From Singulisphaera sp. GP187 (lineage in GTDB: Bacteria > Planctomycetota > UBA1135 > UBA2386): DNA of 64,000 bases. The number at the start of each line of letters is the position of its first letter. Within the stretch, counting starts at the first letter, position 1. A model generated the notes under the pieces. That model saw nothing but the letters and a program-made list of their open reading frames with translations, was not told the origin of the DNA and did not search any database. The position numbers and the translations under genes are program-made. Positions 2,564 through 4,506 of this stretch are shown one piece after another. The stretch is from the NCBI GenBank assembly GCA_945871815.1, contig CAMBXM010000003.1, forward strand, positions 1-64,000, in the 5' to 3' direction.

Positions 2564-4243
2564 ATGAACAACACAGTCGAACTCGCGCGAGACGGCGTGA
2601 ACCTGGAGATCCGGTTTGGCTACCGCCCCGATCTCGTCGCGCTGGTCAAGGAACTGCCCGAACGGCGCTTCGACGGACGCAACAAGACATGGAGCGTGCC
2701 CGCTCGCCACGCTGAAATCGTCTACGACAAGCTGTCGCGCCATCTGTTCGAGTTCACCCCCGAGGTCATGAGCATCGTCGCCGGCACGATGGGAAAGCCG
2801 AAGCCGCGCATCGAGGACTCCGATGGCAGCGTCGCTCCTGCGACAGAAGAGACCAAGGCCATCGACTCGCTGACGATCTCTGCGTTCAGCGCTCGCGTTC
2901 GCGACTGCTTGCTCGCGGGCTTCTCGCAGAAAGTGTGGGTCACCGGCGAAGTCGTTGACTTCGACAAGGGCGCGAGCAAGAACCACAAGTTCTTCGCTCT
3001 GGTCGAGAAGGCCGAGGGCGAGACGACTCCGCGCGCGCGCGTCGATGCGGTGATGTGGGAGACGACTGCAGCAGCAATCTTCCGCCGCATCCGCGAACAG
3101 GCGCCAGACTTCGCGATGCGCGACGGCATCGAGATCCGCGTGGAGGTGCGCGTCGACTTCTACGTCAAGAGCGGCCGCTTCCAGGTTGTCGTCGAAGACG
3201 TCGATCCGTCGTTCACGCTCGGCAAGCTCGCGCAGAACCGCGAACAGATCCTGCGCGAATTGCGCGAACGTGGCCTCGCCGATCGCAATCGCGAACTGCC
3301 GTTGCCGATCCCGCCGCTGCGAGTTGGCGTGCTGACTAGCCCGGCGGCCGACGGCTGGAACGACTTCCTCCGTCACGTCGAGCAGTCGGGCGTCGGCTTT
3401 CAGTTGACCCTCGTGCCAGTCCAGGTCCAAGGTGACAAAGTGCGCGCGACCGTGCTGGCCGGCCTGCGCTGGCTCTCCGACCACGCGGAGGAATTCGACT
3501 GCATCTGCATCGTTCGCGGCGGCGGTTCGCGCACCGACCTCGCGTGGTTCGACGATCTCGAGATCGCGCTGGCGGTGGCCCAACACCCCATCAAGGTCCT
3601 GATCGGCATCGGCCACGAACGCGACCGCTCGGTACTCGACGAGATCGCCCATTCGGAGAAGACCCCAACTGCGCTGGCTGGCTTTCTTGTCGGGATCGTG
3701 ATCAACGAACGCCGCCGCAACGCGGATCGCGCGGTTGCCTTGCAGCGCAACGTCGGCCGCACATTGGCCTCGGCGCGCTCGCGGCTCGACTCGGCCACCA
3801 GTTCGCTGCGACTCGTCGCCACCTCGCGAATCACTCACGAACGGCAACGCCTGCAAGTCGCGGCGCACGGGATCGGCCGCGACTCGCTGCGACTCCTCAC
3901 CACTGGACGCCGCAACCTCGAACGGACCGCCCGTTCCCTGCAGTTGTCGGCAGTCCAAGCCTGCGAGCGAGCGCGCCAGGTCCTGTTCCACGGCACCGAG
4001 CGTGCGCGCCGCGGCACCGACAACGTGCTGCAGCGACTCGCGGCTCGACTCGACGAACGCGCGATGCGCCTCCGACTGCTTGACCCTCGCACCGTGCTGC
4101 GCCGCGGGTTTGCACTGGTCCGCGACGACGAAGGCCGCGTTCTGCCGTCGGTAGCGCGCGTCGCTGCAGGCCAACACCTCGACATCCAACTGCGAGACGG
4201 CACCATTCGCACCCGCGCCGAATCGATCGAGACGAACTCATGA
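2564..4243 (+). CDS. xseA: Exonuclease VII large subunit with extra N-terminal HARP-like domain
   Basis: XseA is the catalytic subunit of exonuclease VII, which degrades single-stranded DNA to oligonucleotides. Residues about 105-210 are the OB-fold (SAFSARVRDCLLAG, VWVTGEVVDF). The nuclease core follows, with VGVLTSPAADGWNDFL, CICIVRGGGSRTDLAWFDD and IGIGHERDRSVLDEIAH. Then comes the long helical region and the C-terminal RTVLRRGFALVRDDEGRVL. At 559 residues it is about 100 longer than E. coli XseA. The excess is an N-terminal domain (residues 1-75) with FGYRPDLVALVKELPERRF and KTWSVPARHAE, resembling the HARP domain of annealing helicases. The stop overlaps the xseB start. Confidence 0.93.
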   Translation: MNNTVELARDGVNLEIRFGYRPDLVALVKELPERRFDGRNKTWSVPARHAEIVYDKLSRHLFEFTPEVMSIVAGTMGKPKPRIEDSDGSVAPATEETKAIDSLTISAFSARVRDCLLAGFSQKVWVTGEVVDFDKGASKNHKFFALVEKAEGETTPRARVDAVMWETTAAAIFRRIREQAPDFAMRDGIEIRVEVRVDFYVKSGRFQVVVEDVDPSFTLGKLAQNREQILRELRERGLADRNRELPLPIPPLRVGVLTSPAADGWNDFLRHVEQSGVGFQLTLVPVQVQGDKVRATVLAGLRWLSDHAEEFDCICIVRGGGSRTDLAWFDDLEIALAVAQHPIKVLIGIGHERDRSVLDEIAHSEKTPTALAGFLVGIVINERRRNADRAVALQRNVGRTLASARSRLDSATSSLRLVATSRITHERQRLQVAAHGIGRDSLRLLTTGRRNLERTARSLQLSAVQACERARQVLFHGTERARRGTDNVLQRLAARLDERAMRLRLLDPRTVLRRGFALVRDDEGRVLPSVARVAAGQHLDIQLRDGTIRTRAESIETNS

Positions 4244-4506
4244 ACGACAAGAAGAAGAAGGCCTCCGAGCCGAGCTACGCCGAGGCAAGCACCGAGCTCG
4301 AGACGATCCTGACCGAAATCGAGTCCGGCGAGATCGACTTGGACCTGCTGTCAGAAAAGGTCGAGCGCGCTGCGGCCTTGCTGGCGATGTGCCGAGCGCG
4401 CCTCGCATCCACCGAGACCAAAGTCAAAAAAGTAGTCGCCGATCTGCACGCTGGCACCAGCGACCGCGCCGACAGCAACTCCAACAGCAGCGAGGACGAC
4501 ACGTGA
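4240..4506 (+). CDS. xseB: Exonuclease VII small subunit
   Basis: 88-residue XseB, a helical hairpin that packs on the C-terminal helices of XseA and is needed for exonuclease VII activity. The family pattern is clear: SYAEASTELETILTEIESG, then DLDLLSEKVERAAALLAMC. The tail after residue 70 is acidic and serine-rich and probably disordered. The ATG overlaps the xseA stop by four bases (ATGA), and its own TGA overlaps the GTG of the next gene, so the three genes are translationally coupled. Confidence 0.93.
   Translation: MNDKKKKASEPSYAEASTELETILTEIESGEIDLDLLSEKVERAAALLAMCRARLASTETKVKKVVADLHAGTSDRADSNSNSSEDDT

Follow-up and report, generated by a model that had tools for sequence, protein, structure and literature searches.

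A HARP-like domain fused to the exonuclease VII large subunit in a group of Planctomycetota

Results

The window (the whole stretch of 64,000 nucleotides that was analysed, from Singulisphaera sp. GP187) carries on the + strand, at 2564-4240, an open reading frame of 559 aa, xseA, encoding the large subunit of exonuclease VII. Its product matches TIGR00237 with an E-value of 9.6e-86 (288.4 bits for a curated cut-off of 180). The lipoyl ligase gene lipB (1807-2550, + strand; Pfam LplA-B_cat, E = 1.6e-29) ends 13 bases upstream, and xseB, encoding the small subunit (4240-4506, + strand; Pfam Exonuc_VII_S, E = 4.7e-13), follows with its ATG at 4240 overlapping the stop codon of xseA. Since each of the 28 aligned relatives has a start codon at this position (26 ATG and 2 GTG) and lipB ends so close upstream, we consider the start at 2564 to be the natural one. 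The xseB gene was present in 40 of the 41 genomes searched, that of the window included; together with a few others it recurs in related genomes near xseA genes of the kind described below (hereafter HARP-XseA), and these neighbours give no functional clue. No defence system was assigned by PADLOC, the PHROGs search was without match, and no SNF2 or helicase domain was found in the XseA of the window by the Pfam search of the protein.

According to Pfam, this XseA comprises an OB fold (residues 103-213, 2870-3202, + strand; tRNA_anti_2, E = 8.9e-17) and then Exonuc_VII_L, which covers the nuclease, the long helical arm and the C-terminal domain (residues 239-550, 3278-4213, + strand). Four residues of the core, D267, R318, H351 and D354, are kept in 45/45 HARP-XseA and in 40/40 canonical sequences, and align with residues that we take to be essential in E. 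coli XseA; because these expected catalytic residues are invariant, the nuclease should be active. K366 (3659-3661), the Lys before a conserved T-P, is found in 44 of the 45 HARP-XseA and in 6 of the 40 canonical XseA; the catalytic motif is close by, and the Lys may be a sign of an altered active-site surface.

Ahead of the OB fold stand about 102 extra residues, in line with the hundred or so counted in an earlier, sequence-only reading of this DNA, which had taken the extension as one HARP-like unit. An AlphaFold2 model built from 28 sequences gives residues 1-74 (2564-2785, + strand) as a domain with a pLDDT of 92.5, made of strands at residues 4-7, 13-17, 35-37 and 42-46 and helices at 22-28, 47-60 and 66-74, in the order beta-beta-alpha-beta-beta-alpha followed by a short beta bridge and a final helix. 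In the model of the full-length protein, the pLDDT is about 91 for the domain and under 50 for residues 80-99, which are followed by the OB fold. The alignment of relatives is nearly gapless over residues 1-74 and not over the following 28 or so, the mean pairwise identity of residues 73-102 being 0.25 with many gaps. The single-unit description therefore holds for residues 1-74, which are folded and conserved, but not for residues 75-102 (2786-2869, + strand), where low pLDDT and low pairwise identity describe what is, on the model, a variable, disordered linker outside the domain. That the extension might be disordered and unconserved, which would have spoken against a HARP domain, is contradicted by this folded portion kept in relatives.

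Selection on the extension was estimated by comparison with two relatives from the genus and a third from the family. The dN/dS of the domain was 0.20-0.22, the lowest or near-lowest within XseA, with 0.23-0.33 for the nuclease core, 0.39-0.60 for the OB fold and 0.5-0.9 for the linker where computable, all these values being rough because synonymous distances are large. Such ratios indicate that the domain is under purifying selection. Among the 45 HARP-XseA, F18, V28, R34, W43 and F62 are invariant and Y20 is near-invariant. With a pI of 5.3-8.3 the domain is close to neutral, and its charge does not by itself point to DNA binding.

The motif region FGYRPDLVALVKELPERRFDGRNKTWSVPARHA (residues 18-50) had been likened to HARP in the sequence-only reading, and profile searches agree with this assignment. 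The Pfam family HARP (PF07443, curated cut-off 25) matches residues 15-47 of a 99-aa N-terminal fragment with E = 1.3e-5 and 25.1 bits, as the sole Pfam family reported for this fragment, and the 75-aa domain (residues 1-75) with E = 6.6e-6 and 26.0 bits; the full-length protein scores 21.5 bits, below the cut-off, which makes the match borderline for the window sequence. Each of the 28 aligned relatives matches HARP individually (28/28; best E = 1.1e-7). When all PDB sequences were searched, the HARP domain of SMARCAL1 (4o66) was matched by the single sequence with E = 1.8e-4 and by the domain profile with E = 6.9e-6, nothing else being significant in the latter search. W43, invariant in 45/45 HARP-XseA, belongs with V45 to the K-x-W-x-V-P motif (W43-x-V45 at 2690-2698, + strand) and aligns with the W-x-F of SMARCAL1 HARP (W372/F374 in HARP2), V45 standing at the position of F374, a correspondence inferred from shared spacing. 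The Trp of SMARCAL1 HARP2 is required for DNA binding (W372A/F374A).

Structure comparison points to the same fold. The 15 best Foldseek matches in the PDB are all either archaeal XPB, over its damage-recognition domain (DRD), or SMARCAL1 HARP, with a resemblance that does not go beyond the superfamily level (E = 0.03-0.2, TM about 0.5); 4o66 ranks sixth (probability 0.92, TM about 0.5, E 0.17), and the five best are archaeal XPB over its DRD, one of them in the XPB-Bax1 helicase-nuclease complex. Among predicted viral structures five matches pass 1e-3, and one of the best (E = 5.6e-5) comes from Bacillus phage vB_BcoS-136, where the protein is annotated as HepA-related. Close copies of the domain outside XseA occur in phage SNF2 helicases, and profile-profile comparison with their HARP segments gave a probability of 99.8%, for segments gathered with the same profile. 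Identification of the N-terminal domain as HARP is thus supported by sequence and predicted fold, and the comparison with the SMARCAL1 HARP structure, suggested earlier, yields a match, as does that with phage HARP proteins.

The domain also touches neighbouring families. Pfam XPB_DRD (PF18458) weakly matches 10 of the 28 relatives (best 8.5e-5) and is not listed for the window XseA at E-values up to 10, and DUF5710 cross-matches 16/28 of the domain relatives. Because XPB_DRD and DUF5710 cross-match weakly in some members, these matches suggest that HARP, XPB DRD and DUF5710 could form one superfamily of common ancestry sharing an R-[WF]-D-x3-K-x-W-x-V-P motif.

Surveyed across Planctomycetota, as the sequence-only reading had proposed, the extension recurs and its carriers form one XseA clade. 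XseA was recognised by TIGR00237 in 262 of the 294 sampled genomes and the domain in 26/294; leaving aside G067, where it lies outside XseA, and G154, where it is cut by a contig end, the fusion is directly readable in 24. Among the 41 nearest genomes, the extension is found in nearly all members of the family whose xseA can be read at its N terminus and in two sister families, and ordinary XseA in five other families of the same order; the domain is kept in other families too and, within the family, in most of the genera sampled. No second xseA was found in the HARP-XseA genomes, extra rows being pieces of the same gene. HARP-XseA is a planctomycete XseA subfamily defined by the fusion and standing in for ordinary XseA. 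A scan of the genomes of 84,980 species returned 30 loci, whose titles name either Planctomycetota lineages or an unnamed bacterium, and all 29 that are not truncated are XseA fusions; deep sampling concerned Planctomycetota and other phyla were covered by one peptide pattern, so that absence outside Planctomycetota is not proven.

A tree of the XseA core with the domain removed (quick method, unrooted) places the 38 HARP-bearing sequences on one side of a single branch with an SH-aLRT of 100, and a long branch separates their cores from canonical XseA. Distances of the domain and of the core are strongly correlated (Mantel r = 0.85, a value reached in 0 of 2000 permutations). Given the single clade and these correlated distances, the simplest history would be one fusion event, the domain and the core having been inherited together since. 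As families within one order differ, replacement or transfer of XseA between lineages is likely.

A contaminating contig was ruled out by the occurrence of the fusion in nearly all readable family members and by neighbours that recur in related genomes. That the fusion as a whole came from a phage or a mobile element was rejected as well: in viruses the domain has its relatives in helicases or other proteins, none of which is joined to XseA, and the plasmid and phage matches, which are weak, mostly bear the annotation helicase or hypothetical protein.

Several HARP-like sequences outside XseA were met in these searches. The genome G198, which has a HARP-XseA (L058), also encodes a standalone HARP-like protein of 84 aa (L040:1477-1731), flanked by acetyltransferase-like and serine-hydrolase-like genes (neighbours named by eye). 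The G067 match (L057, C32:95301-95429) is a weak one in a 172-aa ORF, XseA being ordinary in this genome. On viral contigs, the SNF2 domain of a HARP-like helicase (L100) is interrupted by a match to LAGLIDADG homing endonucleases, probably an intein, and L101 has a HARP-like SNF2 helicase ORF of equal length; L104:2995-3819 shows two HARP matches and L107:2224-3165 a HARP-like stretch with DUF6011, both without a helicase match.

Discussion

HARP is counted with the DNA-binding domains specific for junctions and described as a fork-reversal module (PMC4666394), and two HARP domains moved onto other SNF2 proteins give annealing helicase activity (PMC4035279). From this specificity and this transferable activity follows the idea of a junction holder tethered to a single-strand nuclease, and we infer, on good grounds from what is known of the HARP family, that the domain would bind junctions and target the nuclease. 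The reading that we favour, and hold to be rather probable, is that a HARP-type DNA-binding domain, flexibly tethered, holds junctions for the complete ExoVII large subunit of a subfamily defined by the fusion. The domain would bind and hold junctions between single- and double-stranded DNA, such as forks, flaps and ends that are resected or gapped. The neighbouring single strand would be taken by the OB fold together with the XseA-XseB nuclease and digested as far as the junction. More tentatively, and with somewhat less than even confidence, it can be proposed that bacterial families swapped ordinary ExoVII for a HARP-ExoVII able to sense these junctions and to trim precisely to them without a motor; its sites would then be stalled forks or resected ends, the structures on which HARP helicases act elsewhere.

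Since XPB DRD ranks above HARP in Foldseek, recognition of lesions or of duplex is possible instead of junctions: the domain could act more like the XPB damage-recognition domain, on distorted or damaged duplex beside a single strand, and recruit ExoVII to lesions. The five best PDB structural matches, XPB-Bax1 among them, and the XPB_DRD matches in 10/28 relatives are in agreement with this, but HARP matches all 28 members where DRD matches 10, the PDB sequence search is significant for 4o66 alone and the best structural matches in viruses include the HepA-related phage protein, and we regard lesion sensing as unlikely. The neutral charge of the domain and the long disordered linker, frequent in recruitment modules, would suit a domain serving mainly for protein contacts (packing on XseB, SSB or another partner) or for assembly of the holoenzyme, its DNA-binding role having been lost; such a loss seems improbable, as the aromatic and Arg motif positions of DNA-binding HARP are kept and W43 is invariant.

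A general extra grip on DNA, giving more affinity or processivity on any single strand without junction preference, would be natural for ExoVII, which is already modular with its OB fold for ssDNA, and yet appears very unlikely for a domain described as junction-specific in fork-remodelling enzymes (PMC4666394). As to a chance resemblance or a mis-called start, for which it may be said that the window sequence alone lies right at the Pfam cut-off, the start codon kept in 28/28 relatives, the dN/dS of about 0.2, the pLDDT of 92.5 and the conservation across genera and families already refute the idea that the extension is not a real domain, and we give it practically no credit.

In the literature searched, which left subscription papers mostly outside its reach, no earlier description of a link between HARP and exonuclease VII was found, nor any study of HARP without an adjoining ATP motor, which XseA does not have; the pairing may already be listed by an automatic domain database. 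HARP is known mainly for giving SNF2 motors their annealing and fork-reversal ability, and its presence on a motor-free nuclease separates junction recognition from ATP-driven rewinding, making it possible to test what the domain does by itself. The in vivo substrates of exonuclease VII are still debated, and HARP-XseA offers a natural handle on its cellular role. The fusion suggests a nuclease aimed at single-strand/double-strand DNA junctions in a large group of Planctomycetota, and it illustrates how a lineage could retarget a core repair nuclease through one added small domain.

Compared with known systems, HARP-XseA has the OB fold, nuclease core, helical arm, C-terminal domain and adjacent xseB of bacterial XseA (TIGR00237; E. 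coli 8txr), with the same four expected catalytic residues, whereas in the canonical planctomycete XseA examined the OB fold is preceded by no such domain and the cores stand apart from the distant HARP-XseA clade. With SMARCAL1 and the phage HARP-SNF2 helicases (PF07443; 4o66) it shares the motif, the overall fold and the invariant Trp of W-x-[FV]; in those proteins, however, HARP adjoins an SNF2 ATP motor, and here it is tethered to a motor-free ssDNA exonuclease, the window XseA lacking the SNF2 ATPase motor that a SMARCAL1-like annealing helicase carries. The DRD of XPB (PF18458), the best Foldseek neighbour in the PDB, likewise partners a nuclease, Bax1, in archaeal XPB-Bax1, but it belongs to the helicase, with the nuclease as a protein of its own, whereas the window domain is covalently joined to its nuclease. 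T4 UvsW, likened here by description, has a single HARP at its N terminus (PMC4666394) and, unlike HARP-XseA, is an ATP-driven fork-regression helicase.
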